Shown one piece after another: positions 50,004-58,671 of a DNA stretch of 64,000 nt (positions are counted from its first letter, which is position 1; every line of letters starts with the position of its first letter). This DNA comes from Psychrosphaera sp. F3M07 (lineage in GTDB: Bacteria; Pseudomonadota; Gammaproteobacteria; Enterobacterales; Alteromonadaceae), in the NCBI RefSeq assembly GCF_018860345.1, contig NZ_JAHKPJ010000020.1, forward strand, positions 292,550 to 356,549, read 5' to 3'. Position numbers and translations under genes: made by a program. Below the pieces are notes generated by a model. That model worked only from the letters and a program-made list of their open reading frames with translations. It was not told the DNA's origin and searched no databases.

Positions 50004-50243
50004 CTAAAGAGAATCAAACTGTTCAATCTCAGCAAACACATCTTCTATTTTTGCTGTTAACAAACTTTGGGCATCATATAGAGCTTGGTTATAAATCGAG
50101 GATCCAATCTCTTTCATGATAAATTCCAACAAAAACTCAGCTTCAAATTGACCTAACTCCTTATCTAATTCTTCCTCAAAATACCCTTGTAACTTCACAA
50201 CTGCCGCAGCTTGTTGCTCTTTAGTAAGTTTTATTTCTGACAC
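50004..50243 (-). CDS. DUF2164 family protein
   Basis: A 79-residue protein beginning MSEIKLTKEQQAAAVVKLQGY and containing the family segment EEELDKELGQFEAEFLLEFI. The GTG at 50243 has AAGGA about 8 bases before it and gives the usual length; an upstream in-frame start at 50297 would add an unrelated tail. Cytoplasmic, function unknown. Divergent from the glucosylglycerate operon. Confidence 0.82.
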   Translation of the reverse strand: MSEIKLTKEQQAAAVVKLQGYFEEELDKELGQFEAEFLLEFIMKEIGSSIYNQALYDAQSLLTAKIEDVFAEIEQFDSL

Positions 50244-50301
50244 TAAATCATTCCTTTTTAACCTGTATATAAGTATGGCTGTGTGGGTAATACACATCCC
50301 A

Positions 50302-50329
50302 TTGGCACACTAGTTGTAATCGTTATATT
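50302..50329 (+). promoter_or_regulatory. Predicted sigma-70 promoter of the glucosylglycerate operon
   Basis: TTGGCA at 50302-50307, a 16-base spacer and TATATT at 50324-50329, about 40 bases before the first start codon. Each hexamer differs from consensus by one base. Confidence 0.6.
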
Positions 50330-50368: not shown

Positions 50369-51304
50369 ATGACTACAGACCAGTTAATACAAGCCTTTAA
50401 AGCACAACACAAACTAACCAGTGTTATAGAAGTTGATGCACCAAAATGGTACACACCTATTGCTGAAATAATAAACACTCACCAAAAAAGGGCGGGTAAA
50501 ACTTTGTTTGTCGGTTTAAACGGCAGTCAAGGGTCGGGTAAATCAACGCTCGCCGATTACATCAAACTGTATCTTGAAACTCAATGTCAGTTATCGGTTG
50601 CCGTCGTTTCATTGGATGATTTTTACTTAAACCAGCAACAGCGTCAGCATTTAGCGGAAACGGTACACCCACTGTTACGATCTCGAGGCGTACCAGGTAC
50701 TCATGATATCCAATTAATGTCTTCCACTTTACTTGCATTAGCGTCCCCCCAACCTAATTGTCGTTTACCGCGTTTTAATAAAGCAATAGATAATCCTCAT
50801 CCACAAGAAAACTGGCCGCTAATTACCGAAAAAGTAGATGTGGTGATCATGGAAGGTTGGTGTTGGGGAACATCAGCACAAACCGTTGAGGAATTAACCA
50901 ATCCTATTAATGAATTAGAAAAGCATGAAGACAAAAACGGAACTTGGCGCACTTTTGTTAATGATTCACTTAAATCTGATTATTTAGCCTTATACCAATT
51001 AATGGATTTTTGGGTGATGTTAAAAGCCCCTTCTTTTGACTGTATAGCCAATTGGCGTAAAGAACAGGAACATAAATTAAGACAAGCCCATAATGCATCA
51101 TCAAACGATGATAAAGCGACCGCTATTATGTCTGATGAGCAAGTAGAGCGATTTATACAACACTTTCAACGTTTAACTGAACATGGTTTTAAGCATGCTC
51201 AGAAACAATACAATGTCGTCCTCAATTTAGACGCACAACGTCAACCTATCTCGATTGACGGTAGTTCAGTTTCAGAATTCAATCACTTAAGAGGTAGTTC
51301 ATAA
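50369..51304 (+). CDS. D-glycerate 3-kinase-like kinase
   Basis: A 311-residue P-loop kinase with Walker A LNGSQGSGKSTLADY (residues 50-64), the SLDDFYLNQQQRQHLAE segment, VHPLLRSRGVPGTHD, and VIMEGWCWG. This is the plant-type glycerate kinase (GLYK/COG4240) pattern rather than the GlxK/GarK type. It would phosphorylate D-glycerate, the product of glucosylglycerate phosphorolysis by a downstream gene. First gene of the operon; the next starts 1 base after its stop. Confidence 0.85.
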   Translation: MTTDQLIQAFKAQHKLTSVIEVDAPKWYTPIAEIINTHQKRAGKTLFVGLNGSQGSGKSTLADYIKLYLETQCQLSVAVVSLDDFYLNQQQRQHLAETVHPLLRSRGVPGTHDIQLMSSTLLALASPQPNCRLPRFNKAIDNPHPQENWPLITEKVDVVIMEGWCWGTSAQTVEELTNPINELEKHEDKNGTWRTFVNDSLKSDYLALYQLMDFWVMLKAPSFDCIANWRKEQEHKLRQAHNASSNDDKATAIMSDEQVERFIQHFQRLTEHGFKHAQKQYNVVLNLDAQRQPISIDGSSVSEFNHLRGSS

Positions 51305-51305
51305 T

Positions 51306-52127
51306 ATGGGTCAGCAGTATTTAATCTTTACCGACTTAGATGGCACTTTATTAGATCATAACACTTATAGTTTTCAACCTGCTGTAGAGATGTTGGCTAA
51401 GCTAAAACAGTCAAACATCCACGTTATCCCTAACACCAGTAAAACGTATGCGGAACTCATCTTCTTTAGACAACAAACTAAGCTCGATACCCCATTTATC
51501 GTAGAGAACGGTGCTGCTGTATTTATTCCTATTGGATTTTTTGCGGAGCAACCACCAGAGACAGAAGTCTTTGAACGTTTTTGGGTGAAAAGTTTTTCTA
51601 AACCACGCTCACACTGGTTGACGTTATTAAACACTTTACCCACCGAACTTCAGCAGTGTTATCTCGGCTTTTCCGCCATGAACAATGAACAACTGTGTAA
51701 CGAAACGGGCCTTACTGCGCCTGCGGCGTTGAATGCCAATAGCCGTTTATATAGTGAACCATTGAAGTGGCTAGGCACTGATGTACAAAAACAAATATTT
51801 AAAAAACACTTAACGGATGCAGGTGCTCATGTATTGCAAGGGGGGCGTTTTTTACATATCAGCGGCAACTCTGACAAAGGTAATGCAATGGTTTGGCTTA
51901 CGCAACTAATGGCAAGCCTCGATACCAGTACCTCGTTTTCTACCGTTGCCTTAGGTGACAGTTATAACGACAACGAAATGTTAGAAGTGGCTGACATAGC
52001 AGTTCAAATTAAATCACATAAACATGACTACCCAGCGTTACAACGTAAAGACAATATTATGCAAAGTACTCTTTATGGGCCTTCTGGCTGGACTGAATGT
52101 TTACAACAAATCATAGACTTACCATAG
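51306..52127 (+). CDS. Mannosyl/glucosyl-3-phosphoglycerate phosphatase
   Basis: A 273-residue HAD-family phosphatase of the MpgP/YedP group: nucleophile motif FTDLDGTLLDHNTY (Asp10, Asp12), motif II NTSKTY, and motif IV ALGDSYNDNEMLEVAD. A cap domain lies between. Next to a GT81 synthase it should remove phosphate from glucosyl-3-phosphoglycerate to give glucosylglycerate. Family members are usually annotated as mannosyl enzymes; the neighbouring synthase favours glucosyl. Confidence 0.88.
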   Translation: MGQQYLIFTDLDGTLLDHNTYSFQPAVEMLAKLKQSNIHVIPNTSKTYAELIFFRQQTKLDTPFIVENGAAVFIPIGFFAEQPPETEVFERFWVKSFSKPRSHWLTLLNTLPTELQQCYLGFSAMNNEQLCNETGLTAPAALNANSRLYSEPLKWLGTDVQKQIFKKHLTDAGAHVLQGGRFLHISGNSDKGNAMVWLTQLMASLDTSTSFSTVALGDSYNDNEMLEVADIAVQIKSHKHDYPALQRKDNIMQSTLYGPSGWTECLQQIIDLP

Positions 52128-52137
52128 GAGCTTCATC

Positions 52138-53397
52138 ATGGCTGATTTTTATCAAAATGGGGTTGTTACAACCTTACATAATTTAACAAATCGTAGTACC
52201 GAAGAGCTAGAAGCTGAGCTATTAACTTTTTCTAAAAGTCGACCGCTAGGGTTAATACTGCCTTCACTATTTTCTGAACTAGAAGGCAAAGCATTACCAG
52301 ATATCGTTAACAAGATTGCCGAAGTTCCGTATTTATCTGAAATCGTTATTGGATTAGATAGAGCCGATGTCGACCAATATAAACACGCCATCGACTTTTT
52401 CAGTAAGTTACCGCAACACCATAGAATTTTATGGAATGACGGACCTCGTTTAAAAGCGTTAGATGCAAAATTACAAAAGCTCGGCTTGGCTCCAACCGAA
52501 ATGGGCAAAGGACGTAACGTTTGGTATTGCATGGGTTATATATTAGCGTCTGGTAAAGCGGAATCCGTTGCTTTACATGATTGCGACATTCTAACCTATG
52601 ACCGTAGTTTATTAGCTAGACTTATTTACCCTGTGGCAAACCCGCATTTTAACTATGAATTTGGTAAAGGCTTTTATGCTCGTGTTGCCCACGGCAAATT
52701 AAATGGCCGCGTTGCACGTTTATTGGTAACGCCATTATTAAAAGCGCTTAAACGAGTATTAGGCACCAATGAGTATTTGGAATACATGGACAGTTTCCGT
52801 TACTCATTATCTGGTGAGTTCTCTTTCCGCAGAGATGTGTTAACTGACTTACGTATTCCAAGTGATTGGGGATTAGAGATTGGTGTGTTGTCAGAAATGC
52901 ACAGAAACTTTGCCTCCAACCGAATTTGCCAAGTAGATATTGCCAATAATTACGATCATAAACATCAAGATTTATCACTGGATTCAACTGACGGTGGTTT
53001 ATCTAAAATGTCGATTGATATAACTAAAGCACTGTTCCGTAAATTAGCCACCCAAGGTTACATCATTAATGCTGAAAATATGCGTACCATCAAAGCAACT
53101 TACTTCCGTATTGCCTTAGATTATATAGAAACTTACCGCAATGACGCTATGATCAATGGCTTAACATTAGATATTCATACCGAAGAAAAATCGGTAGAAA
53201 TGTTCGCCAAAAACATTATAGAAGCGGGTGATAATTTCCTAGCGAATCCAATGGAAACGCCATTTATTCCGTCTTGGAACCGTGTAATCAGTGCTATGCC
53301 TGAAGTATTAACCGAATTAAAACAAGCCGTTGAATTAGACTATGAAGAATTTGCTAATACTGTGAAATCAGATTCTATAAAAACCACCGCAGCGTAA
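52138..53397 (+). CDS. Glucosyl-3-phosphoglycerate synthase-like GT81 transferase
   Basis: A 419-residue glycosyltransferase. It has a GT-A core with the DxD motif HDCDILTYDR (Asp148, Asp150), preceded by LGLILPSLFSELEG and MGKGRNVWYCMGYILASG, typical of GpgS. It would transfer glucose from a nucleotide sugar to 3-phosphoglycerate. GGAG precedes the start. The later GalU gene supplies UDP-glucose, supporting that donor. Substrate choice is inferred from family and context. Confidence 0.85.
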   Translation: MADFYQNGVVTTLHNLTNRSTEELEAELLTFSKSRPLGLILPSLFSELEGKALPDIVNKIAEVPYLSEIVIGLDRADVDQYKHAIDFFSKLPQHHRILWNDGPRLKALDAKLQKLGLAPTEMGKGRNVWYCMGYILASGKAESVALHDCDILTYDRSLLARLIYPVANPHFNYEFGKGFYARVAHGKLNGRVARLLVTPLLKALKRVLGTNEYLEYMDSFRYSLSGEFSFRRDVLTDLRIPSDWGLEIGVLSEMHRNFASNRICQVDIANNYDHKHQDLSLDSTDGGLSKMSIDITKALFRKLATQGYIINAENMRTIKATYFRIALDYIETYRNDAMINGLTLDIHTEEKSVEMFAKNIIEAGDNFLANPMETPFIPSWNRVISAMPEVLTELKQAVELDYEEFANTVKSDSIKTTAA

Positions 53398-53412
53398 TCG
53401 GAGTACTCCCCT

Positions 53413-55170
53413 ATGCCAGCAAGTTTAGACGAGTTAAAACATAAGGTTGAGCTGCAACTGAATGTGATATATCAGGATATTGAGTTACCAATGCCAATAA
53501 CTGAACTCAGCCAGTTATTGCTTGATGAAATGAATATACCTGACACCTTTGTTGAGCCTGTACCATATGCAAATCATTGGTCTGAAAAAGACATGATTTT
53601 GATCACTTATGGCGATAGCATAATTGAGGCAGATAAAAAGCCGTTAAAAACCTTAGCGTCCTTTATGGATAACTACTTAGATGACAAAATAAACTCAGTT
53701 CATATTTTGCCATTTTTCCCATATAGCTCGGACGATGGATTTTCGGTAATTGATTATTCCAGTGTTAATGAGTCTTTAGGTGATTGGCAAGATATTGAAG
53801 ATATCGCTGATAAATACAAGCTCATGTCTGATTTAGTGATCAATCATTGTTCGAGTCGAAGTGCTTGGTTTCAAAACTTCATCAAAGGCTCAGGTGTTGG
53901 CAAAGATTACTTTTTTACCGCCGACCCCAGTGACGATTTATCCCAAGTCGTTCGCCCAAGAACCAGTCCGCTATTACGTGAAACAGAAACCGCTGAAGGC
54001 ACCAAACACGTATGGTGTACTTTTAGTCACGACCAAGTAGATTTAGACTTTAGGAACCCACAAGTCTTGCTCGCCTTTGTTTCAATTATTAGACAATACC
54101 TTGATTCCGGAGTGAAAATATTTAGGTTAGATGCGGTGGCTTTTTTATGGAAAATTATCGGTAGTCCATCAATTAATTTACCTCATACCCATGAAGTCAT
54201 TCGTTTATTACGAACCTTAATAGAGCACACTAAACCTGAAACAGTGATCATCACTGAAACCAATATACCAAATACGCAAAACCTTACTTATTTTGGTAAC
54301 GCTAACGAAGCCCATTGCATTTATAACTTTTCATTACCACCACTGTTAGTGAATAGCTTAATAACCGGTAATTGTACTTATTTAAAACGTTGGTTAATGA
54401 GTATGCCTCCGGCTCAAAATGGCACGAGTTACTTTAATTTTATTGCCTCACACGATGGCATTGGCTTAAGACCAGCAGAAGGTTTATTGTCTGATTTAGA
54501 GCTCAATACGTTAGTTAACACCATGCAAACGTTTGGTGGTCGTGTGTCTTGGCGAACGTCAGATACAGGGGAGCAAAAAGCCTATGAAATTAACATTGCA
54601 TTATACGATGCACTAAAAGGCACCACCAAGGGCGAAGACAAATGGGGGCTAGAACGTTTTATCTGTGCCCACGCGGTAATGTTTGGATTGGAAGGTATTC
54701 CGGGTATATATATTCATAGCTTTTTAGCCACTCAAAATGACTATGAAAAATTAAAAAACACCCATCATAACCGTGCAATTAACCGCCATCGTTGGGATTA
54801 TCAATTACTTCAAGAGCAATTAGATTCTAACTTTAGTACACACAGTAAAGTATTGAATCGTATGTTAGCGTTAATTGACATCCGTACAAAACAGCCTGCA
54901 TTTCATCCTAATGCAACACAATATGTGTTACATCTGGGTTTACAATTATTCGGTTTCTGGCGTCAAAGCTTAAACCGTAAACAAAGTATTTTTTGTATTA
55001 GTAATATAAGCGATGAAAAAGTAGAGTTACGCTTAAATGAATTAAACCTAATAGTGACTGACAATTGGTTTGATCTTATCTCTGGTACCCATATTGAAGA
55101 TACCGCCACTGAACTTGAGTTAATGCCATACCAAACGGTTTGGTTAACCAACTTCAGAAACGAGGAATAG
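53413..55170 (+). CDS. GH13 phosphorylase, probable glucosylglycerate phosphorylase
   Basis: A 585-residue GH13 subfamily 18 enzyme related to sucrose phosphorylase and E. coli YcjM. The nucleophile is Asp240 in [16 protein letters not shown] and the acid/base Glu282 in [11 protein letters not shown]; a third acid is in [13 protein letters not shown]. Near [15 protein letters not shown] the family substrate loops occur. In this operon the likely substrate is glucosylglycerate, giving glucose-1-phosphate and D-glycerate. Sucrose phosphorylase is the alternative, but no sucrose gene is present. Its stop is 11 bases before the galU start. Confidence 0.85.
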
Positions 55171-55181
55171 AAGGAAACGAC

Positions 55182-56096
55182 ATGACCCAAAAAGTAACCA
55201 AAGCCGTAATACCTGTAGCGGGTCTTGGCACACGTATGTTGCCTGCAACAAAGGCAATACCAAAAGAAATGTTAACCTTAGTTGACCGTCCACTGATCCA
55301 ATATGTAGTAGAAGAAGCTGCTGCAGCGGGAATTAGAGAAATAGTATTAGTTACGCACGCTAGTAAAAACTCAATAGAAAACCATTTTGATTCTAGTTTT
55401 GAATTAGAAGCACAACTAGAGTCACGGGTTAAGCGTTCTTTATTAGAAGAAGTACGCTCTATTAATCCTAAAGACGTCACCATGATCTCAGTACGCCAAG
55501 CTGAAGCAAAAGGACTAGGCCACGCGATTAATTGTGCCAGACCGGTACTGGGCAACAATCCATTTGTTATCATGCTGCCAGACGTGATTATTGACAGATA
55601 CTACTCTGATTTAGGCGTAGAAAATCTAGCTGGCATGTTAAAACAATACGAATTAACTGGGGATAATCAAATTATGGTTAACCCGGTTCCGGAAAAAGAC
55701 GTTGGTAGTTATGGCGTTGTTGATATCAACGGTGAAACACTTATTGCGGGAGGTTCTGCACCAATCAAAACTATGGTTGAAAAACCAGAGGATGGTTGCG
55801 CACCGTCGAATTTAGCCATTACTGGACGTTACGTTGTTTCAGAAAAAATTTGGGACTTATTAGCGAAAACGTTACCTGGAGCTGGTGGTGAAATTCAATT
55901 AACGGATGCATTACACCAACTCAATAAAATTGAAAATATGTCTGCTTATCACATCGTTGGCAAAACCCACGATTGCGGCAGTAAACTCGGTTTTATCAAA
56001 GCAAATTTAGAGTATTCTTTACAACGTCCTGAATTTAAAGACGATTTAAAACAAGCAATCACTGACTTAATTGCTGATCCAAACTTTGAATTTTAA
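55182..56096 (+). CDS. galU: UTP-glucose-1-phosphate uridylyltransferase
   Basis: A 304-residue nucleotidyltransferase making UDP-glucose. The signature is [22 protein letters not shown] and the active [20 protein letters not shown] follow. AAGGAAA lies 6 bases before the ATG at 55182; an upstream in-frame ATG inside the previous gene is less likely. As last gene of the operon it can convert glucose-1-phosphate from the phosphorylase back to UDP-glucose for the synthase. A strong terminator follows. Confidence 0.95.
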
Positions 56097-56113: not shown

Positions 56114-56160
56114 TCAAAACGTGTACCGCTTTGACTTTACGGCACACGTTTTGAATTTTA
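56114..56160 (+). terminator. Terminator of the glucosylglycerate operon
   Basis: TCAAAACGTGT pairs with ACACGTTTTGA (perfect 11 bp), extended inward by CCG/CGG, then ATTTTATT follows. Confidence 0.85.
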
Positions 56161-56381: not shown

Positions 56382-57329
56382 ATGAAAAAATATTTATTCG
56401 TCTTACTTACTTTATCCTCAACCGTATTACTTTCGGCTTGTACCACATCAACCAAAGAAAAATTAAATGCACCGTTAATTTCACAATCACAGATAGCGCC
56501 TAATTCAATGGCGACTGAGTTTAATGGGTTAAAACGACTGGTGGCTATCGGTCGTTTTTCAGATGAAACCAAACGAGGTAATAGCTTTCTTGTCGATCAA
56601 AACAATAACCGACTAGGAAAACAAGCTTCTGATATCTTAAGCTCTCGGTTAACCGCCAGTGGAAAGTTCATCATGTTAGAACGTCCAGATGTTCAACTAT
56701 TACGTTCAGAGTCAAACCAATTTGAGAGTTCAAAAATAGGCGCTGACTATTTAATCGTTGGTTCTGTGTCTGAGTTTGGCCGACGTACAGAAAGTGATAT
56801 CGCCATTTTTTCTCGTAATAAAATTCAAATTGCCAACGCCACCGTCAATGTACGGTTAATTGAAGTTAAAACTGGCCGTATTGTGTATACAGAAGAAGCT
56901 TCTGGTGAAGCACGTGCTGAAGCCAACCAAGTACTAGGTGTTGGGAAAACAGCCGCTTACGATACTTCCTTGGATGACAAAGCAGTTTCTGCGGCCATAT
57001 CAAAACTGGTTTCCAATATTATGAATAACCTTATGGACTCGCCATGGCAGGCTTATTTAATTGATAATAACGGATCTTTATTTATGACTGGTGGTAAGTC
57101 ACAAGGCATCAAATTAGGTCATACCTTTGCCGTGATTGAGGAAGGTAACAAAGTGAAAAACCCACAAACAGGCTTTTTAATCGCTTTGCCAGGGGAAGAA
57201 GTTGCAAGAGTAAAAGTTACAGGGTTTGTTGGTCAAGGTGATGATGAACTAAGCATAGTTTCAATACAGTCAGGCAAAATAGATACCGCTAAAATCCCTC
57301 AATATGTAATCAGAGAAATTAAGGATTAA
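56382..57329 (+). CDS. CsgG/HfaB family lipoprotein
   Basis: A 315-residue lipoprotein (lipobox VLLSAC, Cys20) with a CsgG-like domain: KRLVAIGRFSDETKRGNSFL, LSSRLTASGKFIMLERPD, and ATVNVRLIEVKTGRIVYTEE. CsgG forms the outer-membrane curli pore; many CsgG-like proteins instead work in envelope maintenance. The C-terminal 100 residues (ALIDNNGSLF-like to VARVKVTGFVG) are an extra domain beyond E. coli CsgG. No curli subunit genes are present. It starts a four-gene operon. Confidence 0.88.
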   Translation: MKKYLFVLLTLSSTVLLSACTTSTKEKLNAPLISQSQIAPNSMATEFNGLKRLVAIGRFSDETKRGNSFLVDQNNNRLGKQASDILSSRLTASGKFIMLERPDVQLLRSESNQFESSKIGADYLIVGSVSEFGRRTESDIAIFSRNKIQIANATVNVRLIEVKTGRIVYTEEASGEARAEANQVLGVGKTAAYDTSLDDKAVSAAISKLVSNIMNNLMDSPWQAYLIDNNGSLFMTGGKSQGIKLGHTFAVIEEGNKVKNPQTGFLIALPGEEVARVKVTGFVGQGDDELSIVSIQSGKIDTAKIPQYVIREIKD

Positions 57330-57333
57330 GATC

Positions 57334-57663
57334 ATGAATAAAATCATTACAGCTATTATATTTTCAATATTTATTTCTTCATTAGCAGGGTGTACGACGA
57401 ATTATTCTAGCGCCACACAAGTCGAAGACTCAGGTTATATCTTATTAAAAGGCAACTTTAGCAATACCGTTTTACATATAGACGATACATCAACCACAAT
57501 CGACGAGACAATCGCTCGATTCAAACTAAACGGGCATTTGGTTTCCAAGTTTCCAGTGAGTGTGGGTACTCATTCTGTAAAAGTAGAAAGAAACGGTATT
57601 ACATTAATTAATAAAAAAGTCTTACTGTCTAACGCACAAACTGTAGAGTTGATAATACCGTGA
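57334..57663 (+). CDS. Small hypothetical lipoprotein
   Basis: A 109-residue protein with lipobox SSLAGC and a beta-rich mature part (GYILLKGNFSNTVLHIDD then FPVSVGTHSVKVERNG), reminiscent of PEGA-type modules but not assigned. It starts 4 bases after the CsgG-type gene and its TGA overlaps the next gene's GTG, so it is co-translated with its neighbours. Confidence 0.75.
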   Translation: MNKIITAIIFSIFISSLAGCTTNYSSATQVEDSGYILLKGNFSNTVLHIDDTSTTIDETIARFKLNGHLVSKFPVSVGTHSVKVERNGITLINKKVLLSNAQTVELIIP

Positions 57664-58010
57664 TCATTAGAAACACTATCCTTGTTGTTTTATTGCTGTT
57701 TGTCACTGCATGTGCACAAAATAAAAATATTTATTACTGGGCTGATTATTCAAATACGCTGTATGAAGCGAATAAAGAAAAATCCGTGAAGAGTGATGAA
57801 CGTCATTATGCTGAGCTAATAAAAATTATTAGCTTAGCCGATCATTATGGCAAGAAGATCCCACCAGGTATTTATTTTGAATTGAGCATGTATGAAAGCA
57901 AAAAGGGCAATCACGACAAAGCGAATATGCTACTTAGTAAGGAATATGCGCTTTACCCTGAAGCCAAAATATACATAGACAATATGAAAGCAGGGAATCA
58001 AAATGAATAA
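57660..58010 (+). CDS. DUF4810 lipoprotein
   Basis: A 116-residue lipoprotein with lipobox FVTAC and the DUF4810 pattern IYYWADYSNTLYEANKE, then IPPGIYFELSMYESKKGNHD, a tetratricopeptide-like helical pair. It starts at a GTG overlapping the previous stop and overlaps the next gene by 8 bases. In other bacteria DUF4810 proteins are encoded between a CsgG-like protein and a GNA1162-like protein, as here. Confidence 0.85.
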   Translation: MIIRNTILVVLLLFVTACAQNKNIYYWADYSNTLYEANKEKSVKSDERHYAELIKIISLADHYGKKIPPGIYFELSMYESKKGNHDKANMLLSKEYALYPEAKIYIDNMKAGNQNE

Positions 58011-58671
58011 ATACATCATTGTAACTACATTTATCCTGTTTCTATCAGGCTGTGTCACCACAGAAAACATTGGGAAAATGGAAGCTTATCCTAAAATGTA
58101 TGAAGAGAAGCCAATCAGCATTGTGGTTTTACCTGCAATTAATAAAACAACCGCAGCGGATGCGACGGATTTATTTTCAACTACGGTGGCTCAACCTTTA
58201 GCGGAAGCTGGTTTTTATGTTGTATCCATTCCTTATGTTAATCATGTTTTGGCGTTAGAAGGGATACAAGATGGTGCTCAAGTAAGAGATATTCCAATGG
58301 AACGGTTTAATTATTTATTTGGTGCTGATGCAGTGTTATTTGTGACGATTGACCAATGGGATACAACCTATTTATTAACGGTTGCAGACGTTACAGTTGG
58401 TCTTAAATTTGAACTCATTTCAACTAAAACCAGTGAAGTTTTATGGCAACAACAACGTGTTATTGTGCATGAAACAACCAGCAATGATTCGGGTAGTATA
58501 CTGTTTGATATTATCGCAACCGCAGTCACTACAGCCACGACGGACTACGTACCAATTGCTAGACAAGTAAACAGTCAAATACTGAATACCATTCCACTAG
58601 GTAAATACCACCCTCGTTATGAGTTAGACGCTAATGACAGTTCGGGTCATACCAAAAAAGTGAAACATTAA
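58003..58671 (+). CDS. GNA1162-like (DUF799) lipoprotein
   Basis: A 222-residue lipoprotein (lipobox FLSGC) with the DUF799 pattern: KPISIVVLPAINKTTAADAT, LAEAGFYVVSIPYVNHVL, and LFGADAVLFVTIDQWDTTY. GNA1162 of Neisseria is a surface lipoprotein whose fold resembles TolB/CsgG-type modules and lies with DUF4810 and CsgG-like partners. Last gene of the operon; a hairpin follows. Confidence 0.88.
   Translation: MNKYIIVTTFILFLSGCVTTENIGKMEAYPKMYEEKPISIVVLPAINKTTAADATDLFSTTVAQPLAEAGFYVVSIPYVNHVLALEGIQDGAQVRDIPMERFNYLFGADAVLFVTIDQWDTTYLLTVADVTVGLKFELISTKTSEVLWQQQRVIVHETTSNDSGSILFDIIATAVTTATTDYVPIARQVNSQILNTIPLGKYHPRYELDANDSSGHTKKVKH

Follow-up and report, generated by a model that had tools for sequence, protein, structure and literature searches.

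Five consecutive genes of Psychrosphaera sp. F3M07 very probably form a cluster for both the synthesis and the salvage of glucosylglycerate, probably organized as one operon. They lie at positions 50369-56096 of the 64,000-nucleotide stretch of contig NZ_JAHKPJ010000020.1 that was analysed (the window) and are predicted to encode a plant-type glycerate kinase (GLYK), a phosphatase (GpgP), a synthase (GpgS), a glucosylglycerate phosphorylase (GGaP) and a UTP-glucose-1-phosphate uridylyltransferase (GalU). Their position, order and tight spacing had been described in an earlier reading of the letters alone (the sequence-only reading) and were confirmed by the listing of open reading frames (ORFs), in which all five lie on the forward strand with 1, 10, 15 and 11 bases between them, GalU being taken from its ATG at 55182. 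The motifs named in that reading were likewise all found (DxD as D148/D150, D240/E282, the HAD motif DLDGT and a Walker A), and its five enzyme identities are borne out by family profiles, PDB matches and the published marks of GGaP. The substrates, the direction of the reactions in the cell, the single transcript and the osmotic control are the parts of the proposal that we infer.

Identity of the enzymes

The phosphorylase belongs to GH13 by profile, and among solved chains it comes closest to glucosylglycerol and sucrose phosphorylases, with the glucosylglycerol phosphorylase 7xdq as the best match. Its catalytic residues are D240 within FRLDAVAF and E282 within ITETN, with D348 assigned by position in an ASHDG segment. 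According to the available text of PMC7178133, glucosylglycerate phosphorylases are marked by (T/S)ETN at the tip of beta strand 5 together with a glutamate in loop A, and the loop-A motif of sucrose phosphorylase is N(L/V)D(I/L/V)YQ. Alignment places both marks of GGaP, TETN and the loop-A glutamate, in the window enzyme, and both are kept in all 41 of 41 phosphorylase sequences from relatives. The window enzyme contains none of the loop-A motifs that mark phosphorylases of sucrose, sucrose-6-phosphate and glucosylglycerol. By the published marks, its assignment as a glucosylglycerate phosphorylase (EC 2.4.1.352) is supported.

Two other identities were rejected. The sucrose phosphorylase model TIGR03852 is the best NCBIfam model for the protein, yet the score of 219.5 bits stays below the cut-off of 334.4, N(L/V)D(I/L/V)YQ is missing, and TETN and the loop-A glutamate are present; for glucosylglycerol phosphorylase, the characteristic loop-A motif is missing and the marks of GGaP are found instead. 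Escherichia coli YcjM, with which the sequence-only reading proposed a comparison, is an annotated glucosylglycerate phosphorylase 38% identical to that of the window; it carries TETN, but has arginine in place of the loop-A glutamate. Divergent GGaPs, 39-46% identical to that of the window and encoded on the strand opposite to GpgS, occur in loci L076, L077 (partial), L078 and L080.

The synthase, which we take to be a member of GT81, aligns with positions 2-401 of 402 of the model GpgS_Meth at 364.2 bits, below the cut-off of 700, and its D148-C149-D150 is invariant across 11 aligned GpgS rows. By its DxD motif and full-length homology it belongs to GpgS in the wide sense. Pfam yielded no matching family for it, and solved GpgS structures match it weakly (E 5.5e-5). 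The phosphatase, which contains DLDGT, passes TIGR01486 of the MpgP/GpgP family (205.1 bits, cut-off 164.75) and falls slightly below the cut-off of NF001218 (356.6 bits against 362). Its top PDB matches, 1xvi, 1wzc and 3ztw, are putative or named mannosyl-3-phosphoglycerate phosphatases.

Of the three PDB chains that match the kinase below 1e-10, two carry the name D-glycerate 3-kinase, 6ckg at E 1.1e-17 and 7xpc at E 1.4e-14, and the third, 1odf, is a hypothetical protein. Homology extends across the kinase fold, as expected of a plant-type GLYK, with 7xpc aligning to residues 45-294. The one Pfam match is a weak one to MeaB around the P-loop (25.6 bits against a cut-off of 23.1), and no NCBIfam model scores above its cut-off. 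The Walker A reads GLNGSQGSGKST, and G52, G55, G57, K58 and T60 of the P-loop are kept in at least 97% of 32 aligned kinase rows (32 of 38 used, six long rows being excluded). The other glycerate kinase families, PF02595 and PF05161, have no match in the window's genome; the same searches found them in 5/14 and 4/14 control genomes, respectively. The class of kinase matters because the GLYK of Arabidopsis yields 3-phosphoglycerate, while both E. coli kinases yield 2-phosphoglycerate (PMC4378991, in its available text). By enzyme class, the product of the window kinase is presumably 3-phosphoglycerate. The logic of the sequence-only reading that both products of phosphorolysis can re-enter synthesis is supported. 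If the products given in PMC4378991 hold for the families found here, the cycle would be closed directly in GLYK genomes only.

Conservation of a four-gene unit

In a survey of 98 genomes including that of the window, with GGaP counted at E <=1e-60 and GLYK at E <=1e-30, GpgS was found in 44 genomes, the window's included, most of them from the same family and order as the window. GGaP was found in 43 of the 98, every one GpgS-positive. GLYK, GpgP, GpgS and GGaP share strand and order in 34 of the 43 loci of relatives; in the remaining nine, GLYK does not adjoin, GGaP is inverted or elsewhere, or a contig end is nearby. Locus L074 (G009), counted among the 34, departs from the normal cluster only in its GpgS, which is split in two around codons 57-60, through either a sequencing error or breakage of the gene.

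The named loci, the best 80 of 589 confirmed and therefore skewed to close kin, show the same unit: the four core genes stand together in 57. Scored on the five gene families only, 49 loci have these four genes alone, 23 have GpgP-GpgS-GGaP, five add GalU behind, two have GalU in front and one has it inverted. The commonest additional gene family near the cluster appears in just 22 of these loci; since the core genes keep their order from one relative to the next, their association goes beyond chance. The conserved unit is the four genes GLYK-GpgP-GpgS-GGaP, to which GalU is a local addition in the five-gene unit of the sequence-only reading. By their titles, the named records come mainly from Gammaproteobacteria, many of them from genera that are marine to judge by name. 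A contig of a Desulfobulbaceae metagenome-assembled genome (L147) carries GpgP-GpgS-GGaP with a GpgS 75% identical to that of the window, which could reflect interphylum transfer or a misbinned contig.

Kinase exchange and kinase-phosphatase fusions

GLYK occurs in 39 of the 44 GpgS-positive genomes, and the other five (G066, G068, G075, G087 and G090) all carry the type I kinase PF02595. The two kinases are found together in no genome, if G069 and G093, where PF02595 is accompanied by a very weak match to the GLYK query, are set aside. One or the other is present in 44/44 GpgS-positive against 23/54 GpgS-negative genomes (Fisher p 4.5e-11, uncorrected for relatedness). The type II kinase PF05161 was detected in seven of the 98 genomes, only one of them GpgS-positive (G056). 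Among five neighbour proteins viewed, from 5 of the 23 named loci whose cluster lacks GLYK, none was a kinase; they were an O-acetylhomoserine sulfhydrylase (L138), a major facilitator superfamily protein (L165), a weak Omp85 match (L166), an ABC ATPase (L102) and a solute-binding protein (L136). GLYK was found in the absence of GpgS in G012, G020, G021, G024, G025, G027, G037, G042, G046, G048, G051, G054 and G057, which suggests that such relatives have some other source of glycerate.

GLYK and GpgP, separated by one base in the window, are joined in a single open frame in some relatives. Among 123 loci surveyed for fusion, 94 have both genes, fused in 15 and separate in 79, and 29 are without the pair. 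Four loci (L094, L110, L115 and L123) repeat surveyed genomes; with these dropped, the fusion is present in 14 of 91 loci of relatives (L044, L049, L050, L051, L052, L080, L107, L137, L150-L153, L158 and L172; the dropped L110, from the same genome as L044, is the fifteenth). Fused frames measure 580-628 codons from stop to stop, with the majority of each half aligned. A GpgS tree of 92 rows, one for the window and 91 for these loci, requires nine changes of the fused state, gains or losses, every one forced by well-supported branches, although long branches leave some single placements unsure. Perhaps, though this is improbable, GLYK, GpgP, GpgS and, where present, GalU form a physical assembly that passes on 3-phosphoglycerate and glucosyl-3-phosphoglycerate without release; the repeated fusion and a dedicated second GalU would, on the same slim chance, be traces of it. 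If true, the channelling of intermediates would allow turnover of the osmolyte pool without a drain on glycolysis.

GalU as a lineage-specific addition

The fifth gene product passes TIGR01099 (343.7 bits, cut-off 326.8). The ORF list starts it at a TTG at 55140, inside the phosphorylase gene; the ATG at 55182, which follows GAAGGAAACGAC, is the likelier start. A further galU in the same genome (G000:C28:393-1265) is 62% identical to the cluster copy and groups in the tree with the other copies of the genus. Six Psychrosphaera genomes contain the cluster (the window's own, G001, G002, G003, G006 and G007), and in four GalU follows GGaP: directly in the window's own, G001 and G003, and in G006 by two contigs that have 121 identical bases in common across the GGaP-GalU junction. 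G002 and G007 have no GalU behind GGaP and a single galU each.

Cluster GalUs are of two types that lie far apart. The second, about 42-43% identical to that of the window, was seen in Methylophaga, a Zetaproteobacterium, G066 and G077, and its sole non-cluster member in the tree is one nearby Oleiphilus copy. When this copy and that of G006 are scored as lying outside a cluster, the tree contains three forced changes; if both are instead taken as cluster copies, two changes are needed, only one of which is forced by well-supported branches. GalU is a lineage-specific addition to the four-gene unit, and the distance between the two types makes it likely that it joined such clusters more than once, though the tree does not force this. 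A distant GalU also adjoins the divergent GGaP cluster in L076 and L078.

Transcription signals and neighbouring genes

Beyond galU, a 41-base hairpin with 11 + 3 pairs flanking a one-base mismatch and a loop of 11 folds at -17.8 kcal/mol (z -5.43), and 0 of 200 shuffles were equally stable (Table 1). It is not among the sites of the motif scan, which allowed loops of 3-8 only. The short gaps and this hairpin are compatible with a single transcript for the cluster. The promoter candidate in front of GLYK is no evidence by itself, because the region holds 13 promoter matches against a mean of 21.2 in shuffles.

Table 1 Predicted genes and transcription signals of the cluster, in window positions
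Feature	Positions	Strand	Length and basis
GLYK-like plant-type D-glycerate 3-kinase	50369..51304	+	311 amino acids; PDB matches, P-loop
Glucosyl-3-phosphoglycerate phosphatase, GpgP/MpgP family, HAD-IIB	51306..52127	+	273 amino acids; TIGR01486
Glucosyl-3-phosphoglycerate synthase GpgS, methanogen type	52138..53397	+	419 amino acids; GpgS_Meth, DxD
GH13_18 glucosylglycerate phosphorylase (GGaP)	53413..55170	+	585 amino acids; GH13, TETN, loop-A Glu
Second GalU, UTP-glucose-1-phosphate uridylyltransferase	55182..56096	+	304 amino acids; TIGR01099
Terminator-like hairpin, then T-rich stretch, directly 3' of galU	56114..56154	+	folding against shuffles
Possible weak sigma-70-like promoter, TTGGCA-16-TATATT	50302..50329	+	10/12 consensus, top score in region

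Upstream lies a divergently oriented DUF2164 gene (50004-50297). Downstream, at 56382-58671, CsgG-like, DUF4810 and GNA1162-like genes stand in a row with one small ORF in between. No RNA family scored above its gathering score anywhere in the window. One BCCT transporter is encoded in the window's genome, and a search for ectoine synthase matched neither this genome nor any control genome and is hence uninformative.

Proposed cycle and alternative explanations

In the proposed cycle, GalU would supply UDP-glucose, which GpgS would join to 3-phosphoglycerate, and GpgP would strip the phosphate to give glucosylglycerate, which would build up as a compatible solute and organic anion. For the pool to shrink, GGaP would cleave glucosylglycerate with phosphate into glucose-1-phosphate and D-glycerate, of which GLYK would return the latter to 3-phosphoglycerate while GalU reloads the former. 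The five reactions add up to ATP + UTP + H2O -> ADP + UDP + PPi with carbon unchanged, so that simultaneous synthesis and breakdown would be futile. One shared transcript could therefore not set the size of the pool by itself, contrary to the sequence-only reading, as running both halves together would only burn ATP and UTP; the halves are most likely kept apart at the enzyme level. Most likely both stand ready, with salt or phosphate setting the direction of net flux. Such control might consist in salt inhibition of the phosphorylase, as in its relative glucosylglycerol phosphorylase, for which inhibition by salt has been measured (PMC10873239, available text).

Several observations weigh against this synthesis-and-salvage reading. 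With a GpgS_Meth score of 364 against a curated cut-off of 700, the synthase is a homologue and not a certified equivalog, and for that reason the donor and acceptor of its clade are not assured. The arginine of YcjM, itself a named GGaP, means that the loop-A glutamate is not universal in this enzyme. One genome (G075) has GpgS without a GGaP at E <=1e-60, GLYK does not adjoin the cluster in 23 of the best 80 of 589 named loci, and the 13 genomes with GLYK and no GpgS imply that the kinase is not exclusive to the glucosylglycerate pathway. A literature search on the compatible solutes of Psychrosphaera brought up no measurements of expression, enzymes or metabolites in the genus.

A different substrate or product at this locus is very improbable. 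A phosphorylase of sucrose, sucrose-6-phosphate or glucosylglycerol, present here incidentally, would agree with TIGR03852 as the best NCBIfam model (219.5 bits) and 7xdq as the best solved chain, but hardly with a score under the sucrose cut-off, three missing loop-A motifs, the TETN and glutamate found in the protein, and the confinement of the enzyme to GpgS-positive members of the 98 genomes. An equally slight chance attaches to mannosylglycerate, after whose phosphorylated form, mannosyl-3-phosphoglycerate, the phosphatase family is named, or to glucosylglycerate as a mere intermediate of a larger glycan, as in mycobacteria, where it arises early in the pathway to methylglucose lipopolysaccharide according to the available text of PMC4555173. 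GalU, a GpgS-type synthase and the marks of the phosphorylase all fit a glucoside, and five checked neighbours in the window (YigB-like, DUF2164, CsgG, DUF4810 and GNA1162-like) include no glycan polymerase or acyltransferase.

The roles of the outer two genes leave more room. It is possible, though less likely than not, that GLYK serves synthesis too, phosphorylating glycerate that is taken up or comes from other pathways for use by GpgS and GpgP, with the phosphorylase as a minor outlet or a scavenger of glucosylglycerate from neighbours. GLYK adjoins the synthesis enzyme GpgP and fuses with it in 14/91 loci, and the 13 GLYK genomes that lack GpgS imply other sources of glycerate; the tight linkage of GGaP to GpgS (43/44 genomes) speaks for salvage, and the five GLYK-less GpgS genomes hold a kinase of the type found in E. 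coli, where the product is 2-phosphoglycerate; such an enzyme would be fitter for glycerate disposal than for direct synthesis. Rather unlikely is that GalU is a chance neighbour serving the envelope or other needs for UDP-glucose. It adjoins the cluster in only 2/43 loci of relatives plus G006 (leaving out L076 and L078, whose copies are distant) and in eight of the best 80 of 589 named loci, once inverted, and the tree forces no more than one joining event if all cluster copies are counted; yet here the gap is 11 bases, the terminator-like hairpin follows galU only, another galU is present in the genome, and cluster GalUs elsewhere are of the roughly 42-43% identical type or are placed in front of the cluster.

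On the synthesis-and-salvage reading, many Gammaproteobacteria, for the most part from marine genera, have the salvage of glucosylglycerate inside its synthesis cluster together with a glycerate kinase, and the solute is then probably a recyclable pool of carbon and anion and no dead end. The either-or of kinases, the natural fusions and the added GalU offer test cases for how a futile cycle is avoided where the synthesis and the breakdown of an osmolyte are encoded in a single cluster.

Comparison with known systems

The idea of such a cluster is not new, as the gene neighbourhood in PMC7178133 and the Prochlorococcus operon in PMC11631117 are already in print, each as far as its available text goes. 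The specificity of GGaP was itself derived from neighbouring genes for glycerate kinase, GpgS and GpgP (Franceus, Pinel and Desmet 2017, reviewed in PMC7178133, available text). New details are the addition of GalU, the exchange of GLYK for a type I kinase and the recurrent GLYK-GpgP fusions; beyond the mention of glycerate kinase in PMC7178133, a keyword literature search returned no report of any of the three.

Like the window, the clusters described in the available text of PMC7178133 often combine GGaP with genes for glycerate kinase, GpgS or GpgP. That text names neither kinase class nor gene order, whereas the window has a plant-type GLYK, a fixed order and an extra GalU. In Prochlorococcus NATL2A, solute genes are likewise co-located in an operon, with synthesis and with recycling to glucose-1-phosphate and 3-phosphoglycerate, but a gene for a putative transporter adjoins, and the accessible part of PMC11631117 gives no list of the genes and leaves GalU unmentioned. 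Synechococcus sp. PCC 7002 has the same core three under neighbouring tags (GPGS A2021, GGAP A2022 and GPGP A2023), in another gene order and with no kinase or GalU named in the available text of PMC10873239. The same source text describes in Marinobacter a GH13_18 glucosylglycerol phosphorylase that adjoins its synthase and is inhibited by high salt. This arrangement follows the same logic as that of the window, although the solute differs in containing glycerol in place of glycerate.

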